A stretch of DNA of 42,355 nt, taken from contig JAJDNF010000053.1 of NCBI GenBank assembly GCA_022340805.1, positions 1 through 42,355 on the forward strand. The letters run 5' to 3'. The DNA comes from Chromatiaceae bacterium (lineage in GTDB: Bacteria > Pseudomonadota > Gammaproteobacteria > Chromatiales > Chromatiaceae). The notes beneath the pieces are model-generated. The model was not told the origin of the DNA. It ran no database searches and worked only from the letters and a program-made list of their open reading frames with translations. Shown here piece by piece: positions 29,164 to 41,353 of the stretch. Positions within the stretch are counted from its first letter, which is position 1. The number at the start of each line of letters is the position of its first letter. Made by a program: the position numbers and the translations under genes.

Positions 29164-30132
29164 TCAGCGGCCGCCGGCGACACGTCGGAAGGATCTCGGC
29201 GACATTCCCGTCTGATGCCGGAACGCACGTGCGAAATTGGCGGCATCCGCATATCCCAGCTGGGCCGCAATCTCAGCGATAGGCATATTCGAGTCGGTCA
29301 ACCATTCGGTAGCAAGGCGCATCCGGCCCTGCTTGACCAGCTGCGAATAGCTGAGACCGGTATCAGCGAGGCGTCGCTACAGTGTACGGACGCTCACACC
29401 GGCCGCCTCTGCGGCAAAGTGGATGTCTGGATACCCGTCGCCCAACAGCGTGGCGATCAACCGCTCGAGCGATTCCTGAAACCCAATGGGAATCGACGGC
29501 CCGCTGCCATGCGGGGCGCTCACCTGGTATGGCTTCGGGCGGGACGGCCTGGATACCGGAGGCTTCAGCAGCCGGCTCGGGAAGCTAAACGACGAATATG
29601 GCTGCCCCGTGATGATCCTGGCATCACCAAAGACCGTGCGGTCGCCCAGCCACTTCTCGGCCCCGGCGAGCAGGTGAGCCTCATCGGGACTCCAACAGGG
29701 ATCGACGAAGCATGTTGATCGTCACGACCAGCGTGTAGATGTCGGCCTGACAGCGGCCCGGCCCGGGAAAAGCCCTGGCAGATACTGGCTGAAGCGTAGC
29801 CGATCTTTCTCGGTGGACAGCCAGAACTGCTTGCCGTTACTGACCGAACCGATCAATTGAATTCCGGTGCGCAGGTAATCGTAAACCGTCGACGACCGCT
29901 GCAGCGACCTCCCGAACTCGCCCAGCTCGAAGGCGGACGTCCGTTGCGAAACCACCAGCCCGAGATCCTCGATGCCCGCGCTGCGGGCCGTGAATTCACC
30001 GAATCTATGCGCCAAAAGCAGCGGCACGAGCGCTTCGGGCTCTTCGAACAGCGCCACCGGAATAATGGCCTGACGCAGAAGTCGACCATCAGCTGCGGAC
30101 CGCCTGAAAGGTTTATAGCTTCGGGCAGGCAC
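29164..30132 (-). pseudogene. AraC-family regulator broken by a nonsense codon and frameshifts
   Basis: The N-terminal part (30132 to about 29755) reads as the sensing domain of AraC regulators of the 'Arabinose_bd' type (LLRQAIIPVALFEEPEALVP, SNGKQFWLSTEKDRLRFSQY). Around 29715-29755 the protein-like reading moves to another frame (QADIYTLVVTINMLRR) and back, with a TGA at 29722-29724 in the main frame. The rest continues in the main frame to the HTH region, where GVSVRTL is followed by a TAG (29377-29379) in place of the expected Gln codon, then RRLADTGLSYSQLVKQGRM and the second HTH (IAEIAAQLGYADAANFARAF). The gene therefore ends at 29164 but cannot make the whole protein. Confidence 0.88.
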
Positions 30133-30496
30133 GATATGATTCAGGCGGCACACACAACTACCTTGACGCGTGCTGCTTCCGTTGCGGCGTCTGCGACGCC
30201 AACTGACGCACCACCAGACTTTCACTATTCGCAATCATCGTCGGCAGAAGACTTGCCGCGGGTCTTTTTCGACTGGGTTACTGGCGACCAGATCCAGGCC
30301 CCTGCTTTAGGCCCGTTCACGGTACTCTTTCGGCCATGTCTCTTGACTCGCTGTCAAGATTCTTTCCATGTCGCGTCCACCGAGGTCTCGTCGCTGCCCA
30401 CTGCTGCGAATGAAGTCTGTGTATCGGCAAGGCGCAGAACGCCACACCCTGGGACAAGGACAGCCACATCTGGCATGCGCCGATCCGGCATATGCC
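30133..30496. other. Intergenic stretch with no supported gene
   Basis: No frame has a ribosome site and protein-like sequence. It separates the broken AraC gene from the end of the phosphatase gene. Confidence 0.4.
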
Positions 30497-32002
30497 TCAA
30501 TGCAAGGGATTGACCGGCGGCGAGGACCGGGCCAAGCGCTGCTTGCCCGTTTTGCCCCTGCCGCCAACCAGTCCGTTGACCAAACCAAGCAAGGGTTCAG
30601 CAGGGTATTTCAGGGGCCACATCTCTCCGCCAATCCGGGTAAACGCACCGACCCAGCTTTCACCGGCGCTGTATAACACATGATGATTTTCGGCGCCGCC
30701 GACGTTGAGCCAATAGGTGTCGTTCTGATCCATCGGAGTGTGGCCGACGATGAACGGGGTCTCCCGCGGCAGGCCGAGGGCCTTGCGCAACCGTCGAATG
30801 TCACCCTTGGTGTATCCACCCGGCCGATCGTGCCGCTGCATGCGATTGCTGATCAGTTCTTTGACCAGGCCGGGATAGCGATGAATCTCTATCAACATAT
30901 CGACCGAGATCTTGGTCCTGGGCGGTGCCGCATGTGCGGCACAGAAGTCCGGTGAGACGACCACGTAAGGCAGCAGATCGTAATAGCGTTGCATGGCCCG
31001 GCGATAGTCCGCGCCACGCGCCTTCTTCAGGGCACGCTTCCAAAGCAGCCCCTGCAGGACGCCCCCCTTGGCGATATCCTCGGAGAAGCTGTCATGGTTA
31101 CCGCGAACGAAAAAGAAGTGCTCTGGGAAACGCAGCTTCAGACGGAAGATCAGATCCATCATCAGCATCGAATCGCCCATCTTTTCCAATGCTCCGTCGC
31201 GTTCCGAATGTACTGCGTCACCGAGGATTACCATACAGGCCTCGCCCCGCTCCATTGCTCGCAGGAAACCGTTGTGGCTGAGAATCACCAACAGGTTATC
31301 GACCTGGGCATGCAGGTCGGCGAGCACGATCGGCGTCAGCTGCGCAGGCAACTGCAGCAAACCTCCGGGTAGTCCACGACTGTCGCGGGGACGCAACGCT
31401 TCCTGTGCCATGATCGTATTGACCGCCTCGATCAGGGCCAAGGCCTCGCTGCTCGGCAGAGGTTTCAGCGGACCGCCGAAGATCTCCAACACGCGACGCA
31501 GACAGGCAAGCCGTTCGGTCTTTTCCACGTTCAGCATCGGTGAGATGCAGGTGCCGGCCGATGTCCTGTCCTTGAAAACAACCGCATCGCCATCATGAAT
31601 CAATTTCAGATGACGCGGGGCGACGGCTTCAGGGTAGTCGAACAGGACCTGTTGCTGTCGATCTTCGGTTCCGAGGGTGAGCTGTTGTCCGGGCTCGAGG
31701 CGCAGGAAGCCGCCGATAGCCGCACCGGAGGCATGATCCGGATCCTCCAGCAGAAAACTCGGCGGGCCACCGCGTTTGCCAGCCACTTGCAAGGGGTACT
31801 CTGGATACAGATGAATTCTCTTGCCGTCGTTGCCCAACAGCAGTTCCATCGGGAAGCCCTCGTACGGTACTCGCACGCTGTCGTCCACCAGACGGTAGGC
31901 CTCGCGCAGCTGCAGCAGCGGGCAGCGGCTGAGGCCCGAAAAGGCCCGACGAAGGCGCTTGAGCAGACCCGGCTTGGTCTTCTTGAGCGGCGGTTTATTC
32001 AT
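30497..32002 (-). CDS. FHA-like domain fused to a calcineurin-like (PPP-type) metallophosphatase
   Basis: This 501-residue product has two parts. Residues about 85-155 have FHA-like features (PRHLKLIHDGDAVVFKD followed by TSAGT), which would bind phosphothreonine peptides. Residues about 225-430 hold metallophosphoesterase motifs: ADLHAQ (the second metal ligand is His), ILGDAVHS, VRGNHDSF and IVGHTP, with CAAHAAPP between. This is the order of PPP-type phosphatases. There is no signal peptide, so it acts in the cytoplasm. Its ATG overlaps the stop of the P-loop gene by 8 bp, indicating coupled production. I infer a protein-phosphatase or nucleotide-phosphatase role in the phosphate locus. 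I do not know a characterised homologue. Confidence 0.82.
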   Translation of the reverse strand: MNKPPLKKTKPGLLKRLRRAFSGLSRCPLLQLREAYRLVDDSVRVPYEGFPMELLLGNDGKRIHLYPEYPLQVAGKRGGPPSFLLEDPDHASGAAIGGFLRLEPGQQLTLGTEDRQQQVLFDYPEAVAPRHLKLIHDGDAVVFKDRTSAGTCISPMLNVEKTERLACLRRVLEIFGGPLKPLPSSEALALIEAVNTIMAQEALRPRDSRGLPGGLLQLPAQLTPIVLADLHAQVDNLLVILSHNGFLRAMERGEACMVILGDAVHSERDGALEKMGDSMLMMDLIFRLKLRFPEHFFFVRGNHDSFSEDIAKGGVLQGLLWKRALKKARGADYRRAMQRYYDLLPYVVVSPDFCAAHAAPPRTKISVDMLIEIHRYPGLVKELISNRMQRHDRPGGYTKGDIRRLRKALGLPRETPFIVGHTPMDQNDTYWLNVGGAENHHVLYSAGESWVGAFTRIGGEMWPLKYPAEPLLGLVNGLVGGRGKTGKQRLARSSPPVNPLH

Positions 32003-32612
32003 CGGCGCGCTCCGAGTCAACGATATACGCGGGGGGGGACGAGGTACTCTCTCTTATATAGACCCGAACGCCGCTGCGCGACAGATGGAAGGCGCTCTGG
32101 TGAAACACCTCGAGCTGCGCCCCGACCAGCTCCAGGCTGAGATGACGGTCTACGGGATGGGTCCCACGCCGCGCACGCCGGCTGCGCTGTTCGAACAGTT
32201 CCTCGGCCGGCGGCAGCAAAAACTCGAATACGTAGCGACCCCGCCAATCGACCGACAGAAAGTGTCGCTTGGGTGGCGGCACCTGGATGCGCCGCAGGTC
32301 CAGTCGCGGATGTGGCCTGCCCAGCAACCATTCGGGGTCGAACACCGCCAGCGCCTGCACAAAACCAGTAAACGGGAATCCCAGGTGAATCTCGCGCGGC
32401 CGAACAGCGAGGGCCTGATCGGTCCACCAGCGTGGACGGCTGAGATCGAGATATCCCTCTTCCGACCAACCACCAAGCTGCCTGATCAGGGTGCTCTTTC
32501 CCGCCCCGGGTGGTCCGGTGACCAGCACGTGGCGGAATTTGACATCCACAGGGAAGGCCAGTCCCTTCATGTAATGCAGCTCGGTAAATGGCCGTGTGAC
32601 GCATTCGAACAT
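31995..32612 (-). CDS. P-loop NTPase of unknown function, next to PiT
   Basis: From the ATG at 32612 the product is 205 residues. The P-loop is VTGPPGAGKST (about residues 31-41), followed by IRQLGGWSEEGYLDLSRPRWW, a short region that could provide Mg-binding residues, and RYVFEFLLPPAEELFEQR, an arginine-rich helix. The size and the loop GPPGAGKST suggest a small kinase (nucleotide- or sugar-kinase-like) more than an AAA protein. The frame is open upstream but reads as the shadow of pit. An ATG at 32570 is possible. It lies between pit and the phosphatase fusion and overlaps the latter, so the two probably act together. Confidence 0.7.
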   Translation of the reverse strand: MFECVTRPFTELHYMKGLAFPVDVKFRHVLVTGPPGAGKSTLIRQLGGWSEEGYLDLSRPRWWTDQALAVRPREIHLGFPFTGFVQALAVFDPEWLLGRPHPRLDLRRIQVPPPKRHFLSVDWRGRYVFEFLLPPAEELFEQRSRRARRGTHPVDRHLSLELVGAQLEVFHQSAFHLSRSGVRVYIRESTSSPPAYIVDSERADE

Positions 32613-32710
32613 TTTCGCTGGCGGAACCTCGGGACTGCCGAAATTGAAGTCTTGGATAAAGGCGAAGGCGACCGGAACCTGCGATCGAGCAGGCCCCAGG
32701 CTCGCGCAGC

Positions 32711-33976
32711 CTAGCCGAAAACGCCTTTGAATATGAAAAAGAAGATCGCAGCCAGTATGCCACCGGCCGGCAGGGTGACCACCCAGGAAACCACGATATT
32801 CCCGATCACGCGCAGATCGAGGGCGCCGAGGCCGCGAGCGAGGCCCACGCCCATCACCGCACCGACCGCGATATGCGTGGTGGACACCGGCAGGCCGGTC
32901 TTGGATGCCAGCACCACGGTAGTCGCTGCCGCCAGGGTCGCGCAGTAGCCACGGGTTGGGGTCAGCTCGGTGATCTTGGTGCCGATGGTCGCCATAACTC
33001 TCCAACCCATGGTGGCCAGGCCCACCACGATGCCGACGCCGCCCAGCAGCAGGATCCAGATCGGCAGCGCCGCCTTCTGCGCTACCTCGCCGCCGCTATC
33101 GACAATGGAGATGACCGCAGCCAACGGGCCAATACCGTTCGCCACATCGTTGGAACCGTGCGCAAAGGCCATGGCGCACGCAGTGAAGATCATCATCGGC
33201 ACGAAGGCCTTCTCTACGCTGGCGTAATGGAAATCGCGATCGGCATTCTCATCTACCTGCACCCGGTTGATCATCAGTCTGCCGATGAAAGCGACCACGA
33301 GCCCGAACACCAACGCCGCGATGAAGCTCTCGGCTGTGGAGAATTCGAGCTTGAGGTGTTTCAGGCCCTTGAACATCGTCACCAGACTGACGATGAAGCC
33401 CACCAGGAACACATAGAAGGGGCCATAGGTCTTGGCCCGTGCAAAAGGGTTCTCGGCATTCAGGATCAGCTTACGGATACTCAACATCAACACCAGCGCA
33501 ATGACCCCTCCAATGAGTGGCGAGACCAGCCAGCTGGCGACGATCTGACCAATCTTGCCCCAGTTCACCGCATCCATACCGATGCCCGCTACTGCAAAAC
33601 CGACGATCGCACCGACGATCGAGTGGGTAGTCGATACTGGCCAGCCACGGTAGGAGGCGACCATCAACCAGATCGCCGCGGCCAATAACGCCGCCAACAT
33701 GCCATACACCAGCAGTTCCGGGGAACCGGCGATCGCCGACGGATCGATGATCCCCTTGCGAATCGTCGCGGTTACGCTGCCACCGGCAATGAAGGCGCCG
33801 GCGAATTCAAAGATCGCGGCGATCACGATCGCCTGTTTAACGGTGATGGCCCCGGAACCCACTGAAGTGCCCATCGCATTGGCGACATCGTTGGCACCAA
33901 TACCCCATGTCATGTAAAGGCCGAAGATGATGGCCATGACCATGAAGATCGTGCCGTATTCGGAGATGATTTCCAT
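32711..33976 (-). CDS. pit: Inorganic phosphate transporter, PiT family
   Basis: This 421-residue inner-membrane protein has about ten to twelve helices and the two PiT signature repeats: GANDVANAMGTSVGSGAIT near residue 28 and HGSNDVANGIGPLAAV near residue 270. The second WPVSTTHSIVGAIVG/LPVSTTHIAVGAVMG pair is also present. PiT proteins import phosphate (with metal) driven by cation gradients. AGGTAATAGTT before the ATG supports the start. The DUF47 gene upstream is the usual PiT partner. The gene ends about 100 bases before the P-loop gene starts. Confidence 0.95.
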   Translation of the reverse strand: MEIISEYGTIFMVMAIIFGLYMTWGIGANDVANAMGTSVGSGAITVKQAIVIAAIFEFAGAFIAGGSVTATIRKGIIDPSAIAGSPELLVYGMLAALLAAAIWLMVASYRGWPVSTTHSIVGAIVGFAVAGIGMDAVNWGKIGQIVASWLVSPLIGGVIALVLMLSIRKLILNAENPFARAKTYGPFYVFLVGFIVSLVTMFKGLKHLKLEFSTAESFIAALVFGLVVAFIGRLMINRVQVDENADRDFHYASVEKAFVPMMIFTACAMAFAHGSNDVANGIGPLAAVISIVDSGGEVAQKAALPIWILLLGGVGIVVGLATMGWRVMATIGTKITELTPTRGYCATLAAATTVVLASKTGLPVSTTHIAVGAVMGVGLARGLGALDLRVIGNIVVSWVVTLPAGGILAAIFFFIFKGVFG

Positions 33977-34068
33977 AACTATTACCTATTTTCTAATTTG
34001 GTGTACAAAGCCGCGCAGCAGGTACCGAAGACCGTCCAGCGTTGCTGACAAATCCCACCGGCCGGCGC

Positions 34069-34749
34069 TCAGCGCGCGATCAACAGCCTGAGCCGGTCGC
34101 CAACCTTTTCTGCGTAGTCCGCGAGATCGCCGATCCACTGAATCAACTGGTACCAAAACATCACCGATACCGCGGACATGCTGTCCTCCTGCGCAAACAG
34201 GCTGCGGGTCAGCGCCATGCCCATTTCGTCCGTCTCGTCCTCGATCTTGTTGAGCGCCGTCACCATCTCCTCGACCTGGTTGGCCTCGCGGCCGCGAAAG
34301 CCCATTTCCACCAATTCATCCAGCTCCTCGATGATCTTGCCTGCCGCATTGCAGGTATCGACGCAGCGGCTCACAAGGGCCATCAAAGGCTCAGCCATGC
34401 CTTGCGGCACCTCCATTCGCCGCTCTACCAACAGACCGGCGATATCCTGGGCCGTGTCCGCGATCGAATCCTGCATCGCCAGTACGTCCAGCAGGTCGCG
34501 CCGGTCGACTGGCATCAGAAGGCTCTTCGGAAGATGGCCACGCAGTTGGTTCTTGATCTCATCAGCGGCCTGTTCCTTTTCGAAAATCAGCGTCTTCTGT
34601 GCCTCCAACTTCGATTGATCGCCATTTGCCAACGCCTCAAACAATGCCGGGACTTCGGCTACGCATTCGATCACGACACGCATGTGCAACTGGATAGGCT
34701 TAAATGGCGACCTCCCGAACAGGGCGGCCAACGGGTTGGTCGATTTCAT
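34069..34749 (-). CDS. DUF47 family (PhoU-like) phosphate transport regulator
   Basis: This 226-residue, all-helical protein starts MKSTNPLAALFGRSPFKPIQ and contains KTLIFEKEQAADEIKNQLRG and LMPVDRRDLLDVLAMQDSIADTAQDIAGL, the core of the TIGR00153/DUF47 family. A second helical bundle holds VEEMVTALNKIEDETDEMG. Such proteins bind metal clusters like PhoU and control PiT transport. GGAGGAG six to eight bases before the ATG at 34749 sets the start. It heads the phosphate operon, 92 bases ahead of pit. Confidence 0.92.
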   Translation of the reverse strand: MKSTNPLAALFGRSPFKPIQLHMRVVIECVAEVPALFEALANGDQSKLEAQKTLIFEKEQAADEIKNQLRGHLPKSLLMPVDRRDLLDVLAMQDSIADTAQDIAGLLVERRMEVPQGMAEPLMALVSRCVDTCNAAGKIIEELDELVEMGFRGREANQVEEMVTALNKIEDETDEMGMALTRSLFAQEDSMSAVSVMFWYQLIQWIGDLADYAEKVGDRLRLLIAR

Positions 34750-35163: not shown

Positions 35164-35634
35164 TCAGTAGTTGGAAAACAGCTTGTTGAGTCGGGTTCCC
35201 AGGCGCTCCAGCGCCAACAGCAGGTGGTCATAGTGGAGTTTGTCCCGCGTGAAGCCGGAGCGGCCATCGGGACCCACTTGGCGGTATGCCGCTTCGTCGT
35301 GCTCCAGGCCAGTGAAGATGGTGTTCAGGCCAGCGGCGGCTTGGTTCAGGGCCTGCGTGTATTCGAGCAACACATGCTGCAGCTCGTGGTCGGTCGCTTT
35401 GCCGGGGTCGCCCTGCGCAAGGTCCTGGGTCTGTGTCTCGAGCTCGGTCAACTCGTCCCTCAGTCGGTCGAGCGTCTGGGTGAATTCGTTGTACGCACGT
35501 CGGCGCCGCCCGCGCAATGCATCAATGATCAGGTGAAAAGAGGCGGCACCAAACAAGGCGCTATGGATCTCATGGTACCGGTGGTGCACATCGGCAACCT
35601 TGCATCCCAGATCGATGACATGGCCTCGTTTCAA
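35164..35634 (-). CDS. Helical hypothetical protein
   Basis: The product is 156 residues, mainly helix. There is a histidine-rich start (ADVHHRYHEIHSALFG), an amphipathic region ASFHLIIDALRGRRRRAYNE, and coiled-coil-like sequence (LRDELTELETQTQDL). A TTG start overlaps the stop of the preceding gene (TTGA), which implies translational coupling; a GTG twelve to fifteen codons inside is an alternative. No signal peptide or known domain. It follows the zinc-ribbon membrane gene, so the two may act together. Confidence 0.6.
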   Translation of the reverse strand: MKRGHVIDLGCKVADVHHRYHEIHSALFGAASFHLIIDALRGRRRRAYNEFTQTLDRLRDELTELETQTQDLAQGDPGKATDHELQHVLLEYTQALNQAAAGLNTIFTGLEHDEAAYRQVGPDGRSGFTRDKLHYDHLLLALERLGTRLNKLFSNY

Positions 35635-35972
35635 TGCTTGCTCGGCTCTTTACGTTGATGCAATTGATATCGGGTCTTCAGCCACATCCCGATGACCAGC
35701 ATGCCGAGTACAATCGAGCTGAGAATCAGGTTGAGTTTACCGTCGACGAACAACAGGAATCCCAGAATAGCCGCACTGACCCAGAAAGCGATCATGGTAG
35801 CCACCCATTTTGTCTTCAGACTGTCCCTGGTTCGCGCCCACTCCGACGCGCTATCCGGGATAATCTCGACCGCTTTGCCTGTGCCGCCACAGGCTGGACA
35901 GACATTGGCGTCCGCAGCATATCTGCGCCCGCAACCAGGGCAGATGATCTCTTTCTCAAGTGTGTCGCTCAT
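35631..35972 (-). CDS. Zinc-ribbon protein with two membrane helices
   Basis: This 113-residue product starts with a rubredoxin-like zinc ribbon: CPGCG (residues 11-15) and CPACG (residues 25-29). A linker of about 25 residues is followed by two membrane helices (WVATMIAFWVSAAILGFLLF and LILSSIVLGMLVIGMWL) and a basic tail. The N-terminal ribbon would face the cytoplasm. It overlaps the helical gene downstream. Function unknown; similar ribbons serve as adaptors or regulators. Confidence 0.75.
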   Translation of the reverse strand: MSDTLEKEIICPGCGRRYAADANVCPACGGTGKAVEIIPDSASEWARTRDSLKTKWVATMIAFWVSAAILGFLLFVDGKLNLILSSIVLGMLVIGMWLKTRYQLHQRKEPSKH

Positions 35973-36088: not shown

Positions 36089-37330
36089 CTAGTCCTTCCA
36101 GGAGACACGGACCTCCTGTATTGCCCTGGCGCTGCGGCGGTGTATGGTCAGGACATAACGCCCCTCTTCGATGCATGTCCCCTGGGGTGGGATGCCACCG
36201 CTGCTGTGCAGGATGAAACCCGCCAGCGTGGAGTAGGCGCCCGGGGGAAGCACGACACCGAGCCCGTCAGCGAGTTGGGTCAGCTCGGTACGACCGTTGA
36301 CGAGAAAGTCGCGCTCGCCGAGCTTGCTCACAAGCTCCTCTGAGGTGATTGGGGCGTCGTATTCGTCATGCAGATCCTCAACCACCTGCTCGACGATATC
36401 CTCCACGGTCACGATACCTTCGGCCGCCCCAAACTCATCGACTACTACCGCGACGACCTCACCGGCCTTGCGTAGATGAAGGAGCAGGTCGCGAATGCTC
36501 TTGCTCGCGGGTACGTACAGGCTATCTCGGACGAAGTCCGCGATCGGTCGCTCGTCGGCCTCACCGAGCAGATCCAATACGTAGAGCATGCCGGTCACAC
36601 GATCCACCCGCTGCTCGTAGACAGGCAGGCGGATATGCCCGGCCTCCGCGGCCAACCGCCGCGCCTCTCCACAGCTAGCCCGCCTGTCGACCATGGTCAG
36701 GTCGATCAACGGGCACATCGCGTCGCGCACCAGGGTCTCGGTAAAGTTGAAGGTCCGCCGGATCATCTCTTTCTCCACCGGTTCTATGTCACCACGGGCA
36801 GCAGCGGGCAACTGCAACATGGTTATGATCTCTTCGCGCAGCGTGAACGGATTGCGCTCGGCACCACCCGCGAGTCTGGCCAGCAGGCGGGTGATCAAGG
36901 TGAAGACCAGCAGGATCGGATAGAACAGGATGGAGAAAAACCGCAACGCGAAAATGACATAGGGCGTGACCAGGTCAGCACGCTGCTGGAACACGCTCTT
37001 GGGCACGATCTCACCGAAGATCCAGATCAGCGGTGCCGCGAGGGCAACTGCCAGCCAGCTGCCCTGATCGCCAAACAGGTGGATCATCAGGGCGGTGACC
37101 ATGGTGGTGTTGGTGACCACCGAGATGTTGGTCCCGACCAGGGTTGTGGACAGCAGCCACTCCGGCTTCTGTAACATCTCGATCGCCAGCTTCGCGCCTT
37201 TAGAACCCTTGGCCGCCTTGAGACGCAGCTTCATCTGGTCGGCGCTGACCACGCCGATCTCGGAGCCCGAGAAGAAACCCTCCAAGAGCAGACAGACCAG
37301 AATGATCAGCAGCGTGGTCAGGATGTCCAT
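36089..37330 (-). CDS. CNNM/CBS-domain (HlyC/CorC family) membrane protein, copy 2
   Basis: This 413-residue protein starts MDILTTLLIILVCLLLEGFF. The CNNM (DUF21) membrane part shows FFSGSEIGVVSADQ, VGTNISVVTNTT and FGEIVPKSVFQQ. A CBS pair follows around residues 200-320 (MCPLIDLTMVDRR, VVVDEFGAAEGIVTVEDIVE), and the C-terminal CorC_HlyC domain begins near GERDFLVNGRTELTQLADGL. Such proteins are linked to magnesium/cobalt efflux or membrane stress. The frame is open to 37444 but reads as shadow. It lies 73 bases downstream of a paralogue. Confidence 0.9.
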   Translation of the reverse strand: MDILTTLLIILVCLLLEGFFSGSEIGVVSADQMKLRLKAAKGSKGAKLAIEMLQKPEWLLSTTLVGTNISVVTNTTMVTALMIHLFGDQGSWLAVALAAPLIWIFGEIVPKSVFQQRADLVTPYVIFALRFFSILFYPILLVFTLITRLLARLAGGAERNPFTLREEIITMLQLPAAARGDIEPVEKEMIRRTFNFTETLVRDAMCPLIDLTMVDRRASCGEARRLAAEAGHIRLPVYEQRVDRVTGMLYVLDLLGEADERPIADFVRDSLYVPASKSIRDLLLHLRKAGEVVAVVVDEFGAAEGIVTVEDIVEQVVEDLHDEYDAPITSEELVSKLGERDFLVNGRTELTQLADGLGVVLPPGAYSTLAGFILHSSGGIPPQGTCIEEGRYVLTIHRRSARAIQEVRVSWKD

Positions 37331-37403
37331 GCTGCACCCGACGAGCAATGTGCGGACGCCCGAGACGGGGGCGCCAACGCTGGGCGCACCGCGGCCGGCA
37401 GTA

Positions 37404-38765
37404 TCATTGCCGCGACTCCGGTGGCGCAGCGCGTCCCGGATCACTCAGATTCACGGCCTCCTGCCGCACCTGTGCGCCGGAGGACGTCTGCCCGACCGTT
37501 GCCGACGTCAGCAACTCGACGGTCACCTCCGCGATGCGATTGACCTCTATGCGTTGAGCGCAGAAGCGGATCCCGCCCACCTCAATGCAATCACCCTGCG
37601 CCGGCAGCTCGCCAAAATAATGCAAGACAAGGCCCCCCAGGGTCTTGAGCTCCTCTATCGCAAACCGGGTCTCGAAACGCGCGTTGAAATCCTCGATCAG
37701 GATCGATCCGGGCATCGCGAAGCGGTTGCCCGGCAGTTCGTGGATCCAATCCTCCTCCGCCTCGTCCGAGGGCGTCGGGATATCGCCGAAAATGGCCTCC
37801 AACAGGTCGCCCATCGTGATCAGGCCGGTGACGCCGCCATACTCGTCCACCACGACCGCGAATGATTGCCGCCGCTCGCGGAAGCTGTCGAACAAATCTG
37901 CCGCAGACTTGGATTCCGGCACGAAATAGGGCTGCCGCAATATGCCGCTGAGTGGTCGCCGGTCGCTTCCCAGCGAGGCAAGATCCACCCCGAGGAGGTC
38001 GCGCGCATGCAGGATGCCCACCACGTTGTCGCGATAATCCGCGAACACCGGCATGCGCGACTGCCTGCTCTGGCGAAAGATCTCCAGGATCTGGGCCCCG
38101 CCCGCATCCGACGGAACGAAGGTCACGTCTGCCCGCGCGGTCATCAGGTCTTCAACGGTCAGGTTGCGGAAATCGAAGATGTGATCAATGAGCTGGGCCT
38201 CCATGTGGTCCAGGGCCCCCTCGCCGACCGCCTCATGGGCCAGGGTGCGGACCATATCCTCGGTGACGATGTTGCCTGGAGAACGCTCCGCACCCACGAT
38301 CAGGGTTGTGAACCAGTCGGCTACCTGTCGCACTACCCAGCGTAGTGGGCCTATAAGACGAGCAAAAAGATCAATCGGGCCGCTCTGGAAGGTCGCGAAG
38401 CCCACATTGTTGCGGATGGCGAGGGTCTTGGGCGTGATCTCCCCGACCACAAGCAGTATGGGCACCATGATGAATAGGTTGAATAACTTGTTTTCCTCAC
38501 CAAACAACTGGATCACCATCGCGGCGGACAGCACCGAGGCAGCCACATTGACGAATTCGTTGCCGATCAAAATGGTGACGATGAGCCGGCGTGGTTCGCC
38601 GAGCAGCTGTTCGATCAGGCCGGCACGCGGATTCCCGTCGGCCCGCATCTTCTCGATCTGCATGCTGTTGAGCGAAAACAGCGAGGTCTCCGAGCTCGAG
38701 AAGAACGCGGAGAAGCCGAGCAGAGCGACGAATACAACCAGCTCGATCCAGAAGGTGAAATCCAA
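37404..38765 (-). CDS. CNNM/CBS-domain (HlyC/CorC family) membrane protein, copy 1
   Basis: This 453-residue protein has the CNNM front (FSAFFSSSETSLFSLNS, IGNEFVNVAASVLSAAMV, VGEITPKTLAIRNN), a CBS pair (MTARADVTFVPSD, VVVDEYGGVTGLITMGDLLE) and a C-terminal transporter-associated domain (NRFAMPGSILIEDFNARFE). It has a longer C-terminal tail than its neighbour. The two are paralogues by layout, but their sequences differ at most positions, so this is an old pair. The start ATG at 38765 precedes a short hydrophobic helix. No ion-binding prediction can be made from sequence alone. Confidence 0.92.
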   Translation of the reverse strand: MDFTFWIELVVFVALLGFSAFFSSSETSLFSLNSMQIEKMRADGNPRAGLIEQLLGEPRRLIVTILIGNEFVNVAASVLSAAMVIQLFGEENKLFNLFIMVPILLVVGEITPKTLAIRNNVGFATFQSGPIDLFARLIGPLRWVVRQVADWFTTLIVGAERSPGNIVTEDMVRTLAHEAVGEGALDHMEAQLIDHIFDFRNLTVEDLMTARADVTFVPSDAGGAQILEIFRQSRQSRMPVFADYRDNVVGILHARDLLGVDLASLGSDRRPLSGILRQPYFVPESKSAADLFDSFRERRQSFAVVVDEYGGVTGLITMGDLLEAIFGDIPTPSDEAEEDWIHELPGNRFAMPGSILIEDFNARFETRFAIEELKTLGGLVLHYFGELPAQGDCIEVGGIRFCAQRIEVNRIAEVTVELLTSATVGQTSSGAQVRQEAVNLSDPGRAAPPESRQ

Positions 38766-39544: not shown

Positions 39545-41353
39545 TTACTTGGCTTTGCCCAAGCCGGATCGAACGTCGTCGATTTCTTCCTCGGTCAGAG
39601 CCATATCCCGCTCGGCCTGCCTGAGCCCGCTATCCCCCGTTGCGAACAGCACTTCACCCAGCTGCACCAGGTTTTTCGCAACGTCATAGGCATAGGTGGC
39701 ATCGTTCATCAGCGATGTGGCCATTGAGGGGGTGATCATCTTGTCGCGAATGAGCGATTCGAGTTTGCCGTTGCGCGTACTGTCCTCCTGCTCCATTTCG
39801 ACTCTCAGCGTATCAAATGAAAGAATCACCGACGCATCATCGCCATGCTCGCGTGCTTCACCCAGTCGACGCAACACCTCGCCGAGCTGCACGCGAATCT
39901 TGTTGTACTCATCCCGGATGCCGGCATTGTCTGCGACGATATACCGCGCCAGATTCTTGTGCATATGCTTGGTATCCTTTATCGCCTCAACGATATCGCG
40001 GCCAGCCGCACGCAACCTGAACAGCTCGTCGGACTGTTGCTCGTTCATCGTCACCTGGGCCCGGCTGATAAAGTTGACGATCTCTCCATACAGGCCCTTG
40101 ACCGTGGTCTCGTATTCGGCATCGAGATCGATCTCGATGGGCTTTCGCGTTCGCTTGACGACTTCCCGGAGGTCCGCATCGGAAAGGATATCGTGCCGAT
40201 GCAGACTGAGGCCATGAGCGATGATCGCAAACGCGTTGTCGAACAAGCGGAGCGTTTCCTTCCTTACCGCCTCGATGGCGGTGTCGGGAAGTTCGATGGC
40301 CGCGTCATTTAGGTACTTCGGCGTGGCAGCGGCAACCACTTTCTCCGGCATGATCCTGGTCAGGAAAACCACCAAGCGATTGATGAACGGAAGCATGACC
40401 ACGATACCGATGGTGTTGAACAGGGTATGGAACACCGCAAGCTTCAAAGTGTAGTCATCCGCGGCAATGCCCACCCATGAACTGATGAGGTTGACAGCCT
40501 GCCCGATCTGGTAGATCAAGCCGATGGCGATTGCCGCGGTAGCCACGTTGAAGATCAGGTGCGCGGCTGCCAGCCGTTTACCCTGCACGTTGGCGCTCAT
40601 GGAGCCGAGTATCGCGGTTATGGTGGTGCCGATATTCGCCCCGATCGCCAGGGCCAGCGCATTCTCATAGGTGACCTGTTGGGCGGCCAGCGCCGTGATG
40701 ATGATCACCAGTGTGGCGTGGCTGGATTGCATGATCACCGTTGCCGCCACACCGAGCAACGTGAACAGGAAGAGACCCGTGTATCCGCTGACCGCGAAGG
40801 CCGTCAGGTCTATGGTGTCGCGAAACGCCTCGAACCCCTCTTTCATGTGGTGGATGCCGAGAAACAGGAACCCCAATCCAGTCAGGATGTAACCGGCGCC
40901 CCTGAGATTCTTCGACTTCTGGAAGATAAGGATGACACCAAAAACCAGCATGGGCATGGCATAAGCCGAGATCTTGACCTTGAGCCCGAAGCCGGCGATA
41001 AGCCAGGCACCTGTCGTCGTTCCGAGGTTGGCACCGAATATGATGCCGATACCCGCGGCCAGTCCGATCAGGCCGGCGCTCAGAAACGAGATGGTGATGA
41101 CGGATACCAGCGAACTCGACTGCATCAGCGTCGTGCTCACAATACCGAAGCTCAGGGACTTCCACAGCCCGTCGGTCGTCTTTCGCAGCAGGCGTTCCAG
41201 AATACCTCCGGTAAACGCCTTGAATCCCTCTTCGAGGGCCAGCATGCCGAACAGAAATATCGCCACGCCAGCTGATATTTCCTTGAAGTCTGGGCTTATC
41301 CAGAAGCCATAGGCCAGCACTAATAATATTGTCGGCAGGATTGCTTTTTTCAC
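39545..41353 (-). CDS. Na/Pi cotransporter family protein with PhoU-like C-terminal domain
   Basis: This 602-residue protein has the two inverted NptA repeats: FGIVSTTLMQSSSLVSVITI and TTTGAWLIAG in the first, GVAATVIMQSSHATLVIIIT and IGANIGTTITAIL in the second. The QSSS/QSSH motifs bind sodium and phosphate. From about residue 350 to the end the sequence is helical, PhoU-like, and lies in the cytoplasm (LFDNAFAIIAHGLSLHRHDI, then RLRAAGRDIVEAIKDTKHMH). The GTG start at 41353 has only a weak ribosome site. It is the second phosphate transport system within 9 kb, of an unrelated family to PiT. Confidence 0.93.
   Translation of the reverse strand: MKKAILPTILLVLAYGFWISPDFKEISAGVAIFLFGMLALEEGFKAFTGGILERLLRKTTDGLWKSLSFGIVSTTLMQSSSLVSVITISFLSAGLIGLAAGIGIIFGANLGTTTGAWLIAGFGLKVKISAYAMPMLVFGVILIFQKSKNLRGAGYILTGLGFLFLGIHHMKEGFEAFRDTIDLTAFAVSGYTGLFLFTLLGVAATVIMQSSHATLVIIITALAAQQVTYENALALAIGANIGTTITAILGSMSANVQGKRLAAAHLIFNVATAAIAIGLIYQIGQAVNLISSWVGIAADDYTLKLAVFHTLFNTIGIVVMLPFINRLVVFLTRIMPEKVVAAATPKYLNDAAIELPDTAIEAVRKETLRLFDNAFAIIAHGLSLHRHDILSDADLREVVKRTRKPIEIDLDAEYETTVKGLYGEIVNFISRAQVTMNEQQSDELFRLRAAGRDIVEAIKDTKHMHKNLARYIVADNAGIRDEYNKIRVQLGEVLRRLGEAREHGDDASVILSFDTLRVEMEQEDSTRNGKLESLIRDKMITPSMATSLMNDATYAYDVAKNLVQLGEVLFATGDSGLRQAERDMALTEEEIDDVRSGLGKAK

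Follow-up and report, generated by a model that had tools for sequence, protein, structure and literature searches.

In a 42,355-nucleotide stretch of DNA from a Chromatiaceae bacterium (contig JAJDNF010000053.1 of assembly GCA_022340805.1; the whole stretch is called the window below), four neighbouring genes on the minus strand encode a DUF47 protein, a PiT phosphate transporter, a 205-amino-acid P-loop protein and a 501-amino-acid protein that joins an FHA-like domain to a PPP metallophosphatase. We use PLOOP and PPASE as working names for the last two. Our analysis shows that PLOOP-PPASE beside PiT is a widely conserved module, which probably controls phosphate flow in bacteria, including phosphorus-removing wastewater microbes. 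We regard it as nearly certain that PLOOP and PPASE form one functional unit, and as very likely that this unit takes part in phosphate transport or homeostasis; the probability that it works as a reversible kinase/phosphatase switch on the phosphate flux through PiT-DUF47 is, in our estimate, about 0.5. What is observed in favour of the switch is the order of the genes, their co-occurrence and their natural fusions, together with a Walker A motif and a PPP metal site that are both intact. As far as our searches showed, PLOOP and PPASE are previously undescribed enzymes beside a common phosphate transporter.

The cluster opens with the DUF47 gene (PhoU_div, 226 amino acids; 34069..34749, minus strand), which matches PF01865 (E 4.6e-55, 186.7 bits) and TIGR00153 (157.6 bits), both over the cut-off. 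It is followed after 92 nt by PiT (421 amino acids; 32711..33976, minus strand), which matches PF01384 over profile positions 1-350 of 350 (E 1.6e-123, 412.6 bits), and after a further 98 nt by PLOOP (31995..32612, minus strand), whose translation contains a Walker A motif and which we describe as a nucleotide-kinase-like P-loop protein of a new family. PPASE (30497..32002, minus strand), recognized from its translation, a PF00149 match, a structure model and Foldseek, overlaps PLOOP by 8 bases of the sequence (31995..32002, minus strand). A first-pass annotation of the window had described the four genes as co-oriented with the last two overlapping by 8 bp, and this layout was confirmed. Comparison with the nearest relative gave a dN of 0.11 and a dS of 0.88 for the PLOOP gene, and 0.12 and 0.82 for the PPASE gene; the low dN relative to dS indicates that both are under purifying selection.

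A database scan of named genomes yielded 172 PPASE relatives, and the best 80 loci were kept; as they were chosen by likeness to PPASE, this set is not a random sample. PLOOP adjoins or is fused to PPASE in 57 of the 80 loci, and the remaining 23 are without PLOOP. In 51 of the 57 loci, the end of PiT is no more than 1.5 kb upstream of PLOOP (49 of the 54 with enough sequence), whereas at the loci without PLOOP it lies within 1.5 kb before PPASE in 2 of 23 (2 of the 19 with room). When any match to PiT, a Na/Pi cotransporter or PhoU was counted, the figures were 55/57 with PLOOP and 3/23 without. These differences indicate that the paired form follows PiT and that the solo form does not. The order DUF47-PiT-PLOOP-PPASE is kept in six loci (L035, L036, L037, L039, L041 and L045), and in the Accumulibacter loci of the set the putative kinase-phosphatase unit sits behind the DUF47-PiT pair. 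The gene order of the four-gene arrangement is far from chance. Of 56 near-relative genomes, 14 have PPASE and 11 have a strong PLOOP match, and all 11 also have PPASE.

We also examined evenly drawn samples of 369 genomes from the class and 398 from the phylum, both of which include the window's own genome. In the class sample, PPASE was found in nine genomes from six families and strong PLOOP in the same nine (matches at E 1.1e-70 or better were counted; 18 of the 27 genomes with a match at E 0.001 were dropped, their best matches having E 1.9e-5 or weaker). In the phylum sample, PPASE was found in 19 genomes and PLOOP (E 1e-10) in 18, all of them shared; the exception, with PPASE only, is a genome that is 75% complete (G513). 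PLOOP and PPASE are 500 nt or less apart in 14 of 27 carriers. PiT is present in all 27, but since it is also present in 10 of 14 control genomes, its mere presence says little. Its position is more informative: in 17/27 carriers, representing 10 of 15 families, PLOOP or PPASE has PiT no more than 6 kb away, versus 0.59 expected, a rough estimate from copy numbers and genome sizes, and contig ends can hide neighbours. The first-pass annotation had made its proposal depend on co-occurrence with pit in other genomes, and the proposal survives this comparison both in the best-80 set and among the sampled carriers. Outside the class, order and orientation vary and the phosphate genes (PiT, DUF47, Na/Pi cotransporter, Pst-PhoU) stay close; at two loci (L198 and L203), PLOOP and PPASE face PiT-DUF47 and have Pst-PhoU on the other side. 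Five of the genomes (G426, G458, G462, G487 and G490) contain five or six PiT-family genes each.

A single open frame of about 690-760 amino acids encodes both PLOOP and PPASE in seven of the 57 loci. The fused frames are from six Accumulibacter genomes and Dechloromonas sp. SSD3. A tree of 81 PPASE rows requires two changes to explain the fused state, and its supported branches force two, so that the branching would fit either two fusions or one fusion with a later split.

The PLOOP protein exceeded the cut-off of no Pfam or NCBIfam model, and its matches to Pfam, NCBIfam and PDB sequences were confined to Walker A in the alignments shown (60 of 240 PDB sequences); membership in a known curated family was therefore rejected. 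Among 72,556 plasmid records, there was no relative at E 1e-5. Across 35 rows of relatives, 32 of the 205 residues are invariant, including the motifs GWxEEGY, WW and RPRExH, which are PLOOP's own. Walker A itself (GPPGAGKST, residues 33-41; 32490..32516, minus strand) has G33, P34, P35, G36, G38 and K39 invariant in 35/35 rows, so that the lysine and the glycines expected of a P-loop NTPase are all present. Ten of the invariant residues are basic and three acidic, and the basic ones would fit a strongly negative, phosphorylated ligand. The structure model (pLDDT 92.3, pTM 0.89) was compared with the PDB by Foldseek, and the matches, although weak, were mostly adenylate, UMP/CMP, guanylate, shikimate and pantothenate kinases. 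The best was 7owe (E 1.1e-3, probability 0.95), and none was under 0.001; the best match among viral models was a thymidylate kinase (E 2.9e-4), and the viral search added nothing specific. On the question raised in the first-pass annotation, whether the P-loop protein matches a known kinase fold, nucleotide kinases are what the model resembles most, and the similarity is weak. Phosphotransfer activity is weakly predicted on this basis.

PLOOP might instead be a sensor of the ATPase/GTPase type which, without kinase activity, gates a PPASE that dephosphorylates a protein modified by another kinase. The Walker A-limited PDB sequence matches, which are mostly to ABC and AAA ATPases in the alignments shown, would suit such a sensor, and the fusions are compatible with a gated phosphatase. 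We nevertheless judge this quite unlikely, as the fold matches are mostly small-molecule kinases and the invariant R143 and R146 presumably occupy the places of the lid arginines of nucleotide kinases.

In PPASE, PF00149 matches residues 225-425 over the cut-off (E 3.4e-06), and the phosphatase domain spans residues 225-470 (30593..31330, minus strand). The model has a pLDDT of 88.1 and a pTM of 0.87, and Foldseek matched its C-terminal part to PP1, PP5, PPZ and calcineurin (best 5jpe, E 1.4e-13). By sequence, the best PDB profile match has E 2.3e-05, a weak similarity to solved PPP enzymes. The residues D229, H231, D262, N302, H303, H357, R387 and H421 are identical in 39/39 rows of relatives. 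They include the complete D, H, D, N, H, H set of PPP metal ligands (D229, H231, D262, N302, H357 and H421). PPASE thus keeps the full PPP metal site, and phosphatase activity is predicted. The substrate arginine in the GDxxDRG motif of PPP phosphatases is absent: position 266, which we take to be the place of R96 in PP1, is S in 24, P in 8, C in 4 and N in 3 of the 39 rows, and never R.

The N-terminal region (residues 34-165; 31508..31903, minus strand) was aligned by hhalign with 18 FHA domains of relatives with a probability of 90.4 and a score of 39.5, compared with scores of 16.2 or less when the columns were shuffled 30 times and 11.6 when the PPP part of PPASE was used, and in the model it is an all-strand domain of ten strands. 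The FHA-like N-terminus proposed in the first-pass annotation is borne out by this profile match and by the model. Single-sequence matches were weaker: the Pfam FHA-type model PF16697 matched the window's PPASE below threshold (E 0.0037), and Pfam FHA gave a match at E up to 1 for 5 of the 39 rows, the best of them at 0.0017. Foldseek with the whole of PPASE gave no FHA structure among the 50 matches listed, all of which were PPP enzymes. The phosphothreonine site is degenerate, as described below, and the domain is therefore called FHA-like; judged from its residues, it is more likely a docking module.

A P-loop kinase combined with a phosphatase is found in the repair enzymes Pnkp/PNKP, and PNKP also has an FHA domain. 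PLOOP and PPASE might accordingly serve nucleic-acid end repair or dinucleotide clean-up, with an incidental transporter neighbourhood, because the same three functions (a P-loop kinase fold, a PPP or other phosphatase, and FHA) recur there. The presence of PiT beside the genes in 51/57 loci and 17/27 sampled carriers makes this highly improbable, and in the PDB sequence searches no Pnkp chain appeared for PLOOP (60 of 240 sequences shown) or for PPASE (59 listed).

Many Accumulibacter and a Dechloromonas are among the named hosts of the best 80 loci, which raises the question of polyphosphate. PPASE might cut polyphosphate, and PLOOP might transfer phosphate to or from a small acceptor, with polyphosphate or ATP as the other partner, next to the transporter that carries the product, so that the pair would belong to metabolism and not to regulation. 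The ten invariant basic residues of PLOOP agree with this, as does a CHAD gene near solo PPASE in 4 of 23 loci; polyphosphate binding by CHAD domains is reported in one paper (PMC6537752), and another presents yeast Ppn2, an ApaH-like PPP-family enzyme, as an endopolyphosphatase (PMC8220851). However, CHAD was found in 0/57 loci with PLOOP, the PLOOP-bearing form tracks PiT and not polyphosphate genes, and the best fold matches of PPASE are protein phosphatases of the PP1/PP5 type. A role confined to polyphosphate is further weakened because a search for PPK1 (PF02503) succeeded in only 8 of the 29 carriers, all 8 from the class, and gave no match in the window's own genome (completeness 89.93%; PPK2 was not searched). 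We therefore regard polyphosphate metabolism as doubtful. No Propionivibrio was among the best 80 of the 172 loci, a weak negative that covers these 80 and not the other 92 matches.

Solo PPASE genes near CHAD-domain genes are those of L070, L071, L072 and L077, and L046 has the same neighbour. The first four of these loci, which are of the Thiodiazotropha type, also contain a second metallophosphatase and a 255-amino-acid protein without a Pfam match beside PPASE. In three other loci of this type (L088, L093 and L131), a second PPASE lies shortly downstream of the paired one. In G000, a second PPASE and a second PLOOP survive as remnants, side by side near a contig end (G000:C69:91984-92271; L002, L034 and L053); one has an internal stop, and they adjoin a second CorC-like pair.

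PiT is not the only phosphate transporter beside the module. Na+/Pi cotransporter relatives lie beside the cluster in six loci (L036, L039, L041, L042, L048 and L049). In some genomes PLOOP is fused instead to a GAF domain (for example L052:518-1885, and L051), and in L168, L186, L187 and L202 the neighbours of such PLOOP-GAF genes encode a Na/Pi cotransporter or DUF47-PiT. A gene for an ATP-cone and AAA kinase-like protein is found near DUF47-PiT-PLOOP at L050:6066-7226, L143:5119-6267 and L145:1154-2302.

Eukaryotic PPIP5K combines a kinase and a phosphatase for inositol pyrophosphates, and by analogy PLOOP and PPASE might make and destroy a small phosphorylated signal of phosphate status that is read by DUF47, PhoU-like or CorC proteins. 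The natural fusions and the small-molecule-kinase-like fold of PLOOP are in line with a messenger, and so is the PLOOP-GAF fusion. Moreover, the module stands beside PiT, a Na/Pi cotransporter or Pst in different genomes, and these varied partners fit a shared signal better than a single protein target. On the other hand, the PPP enzymes nearest to PPASE in fold are protein phosphatases, and no ligand or receptor was found described in the portions of the open literature searched, so we consider a messenger unlikely. A bolder form of the analogy, to which we would give similarly long odds, is that PLOOP-PPASE writes and erases a phosphate-status signal as a functional counterpart of the eukaryotic inositol-pyrophosphate system, sets Pit uptake versus release, and might provide the switch still missing from biological phosphorus removal by Accumulibacter.

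We return to the reversible switch on PiT-DUF47. Co-occurrence, fusions, a kinase-like fold and an intact phosphatase site are most simply explained if the two proteins act on one substrate in opposite directions, and their link to phosphate transport comes from the position behind DUF47-PiT, or elsewhere beside a Na/Pi cotransporter or Pst-PhoU. PLOOP would be a kinase-like phosphotransferase and not merely an ATP hydrolase, and PPASE would oppose it on the common substrate. The target would be the transporter complex, namely PiT, DUF47 or a signal read by them, and the FHA-like domain would dock PPASE on a partner instead of reading phosphothreonine. Where Pit moves phosphate both ways, the unit could balance uptake and efflux. 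The first-pass annotation had suggested such a kinase/phosphatase switch on PiT or DUF47; PiT adjacency, the mutual dependence of the two genes and the fusions now favour it, and the phosphorylation chemistry and the target remain a proposal. Its alternative, that the pair removes a phosphorylated metabolite when phosphate is high, may apply instead.

Several observations weigh against such a switch. The kinase assignment rests on weak matches, the TM-scores of PLOOP being 0.47 or less among the matches listed (0.43 or less for the PDB rows listed). The residues of the FHA-like domain at the positions that we take to bind phosphothreonine are mostly lost (R in 12, S in 6, H in 24 and N in 4 or fewer of 39 rows). 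Three near relatives (G013, G026 and G031) carry PPASE without a PLOOP match. No PiT lies within 6 kb in 10 of the 27 carriers, including all five genomes of one family (f228; the other families without nearby PiT are f217, f224, f233 and f236). The magnetococcal copies are away from PiT; at L111, the one such locus scanned with Pfam, the neighbours are a Kdo-transferase-like gene, lpxK, recO and an era-like gene. Finally, a terminator-like stem at the PiT end (32769-32749; 11 such sites were found and 5.0 expected) means that a single transcript over the cluster is not assured. A promoter scan found one site, on the plus strand, versus 2.2 expected.

Should Pit flux be set by the unit, phosphorus removal would have a control that can be tested with two genes, and a P-loop family without a curated model would gain a function. 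Pit and DUF47 are widespread, and our literature search met no account of how Pit activity or direction is controlled after transcription. At the transcriptional level, PolR controls pit in Microlunatus according to one report (PMC6754071). No title or abstract start in the open literature described a PLOOP-PPASE module, and as subscription journals and preprints are outside this coverage, its absence from print is not established. The module is relevant to Accumulibacter in that it sits behind DUF47-PiT and is a single protein in six genomes. According to PMC12604563, the proton motive force behind anaerobic substrate uptake in Accumulibacter comes mainly from proton-phosphate efflux via Pit; the same paper also gives Propionivibrio aalborgensis as lacking pitA. 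Another study lists pitA among the Accumulibacter core genes (PMC12766714).

Farther upstream of the cluster, the window contains two CorC/CNNM-like genes (36089..38765, minus strand), known from BLAST of the neighbours in relatives' loci. CorC-like neighbours were found in this way in L036, L037, L039, L045, L049, L050 and L053, and a CorC-like pair lies beside the cluster in 10 of the 57 loci with PLOOP and 5 of the 23 without. Next comes a second phosphate transporter gene, of the Na+/Pi cotransporter family (39545..41353, minus strand; PF02690, E 1.9e-46). Between DUF47 and the CorC-like genes, a zinc-ribbon membrane protein and a 156-amino-acid protein are encoded at 35164-35972, and they are kept in the same-genus relatives L035 and L036. 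On the other side of the cluster, at 29722-30234 and on to about 29170, there is a remnant of an AraC-type regulator with an arabinose-binding domain (PF12625, E 3.1e-07). Its frame ends at 29722, helix-turn-helix-like letters can be seen by eye farther on, and the gene looks broken.

Compared with known systems, the first two genes of the cluster are ordinary members of the DUF47-PiT pair in the usual order; the difference is that here PLOOP and PPASE follow, an extension conserved in many genomes. The predicted P-loop fold of PLOOP weakly resembles that of adenylate and other nucleotide kinases, but PLOOP differs from them in its low TM-scores, in sequence similarity limited to Walker A in the alignments shown, and in its own motifs. 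Residues 225-470 of PPASE have the fold and metal ligands of the PPP Ser/Thr phosphatases PP1, PP5 and PPZ1, from which PPASE differs by S266 at the presumed place of R96 in PP1, by the preceding FHA-like domain and by weak sequence similarity. That domain resembles FHA domains in its profile-profile match and richness in strands, although the R, S and N of the phosphothreonine site are mostly not kept. PPIP5K, PFK-2/FBPase-2 and Pnkp unite a kinase and a phosphatase in one polypeptide, as do the seven fused frames described here, whereas the PDB searches found no sequence relation between these enzymes and PLOOP-PPASE.

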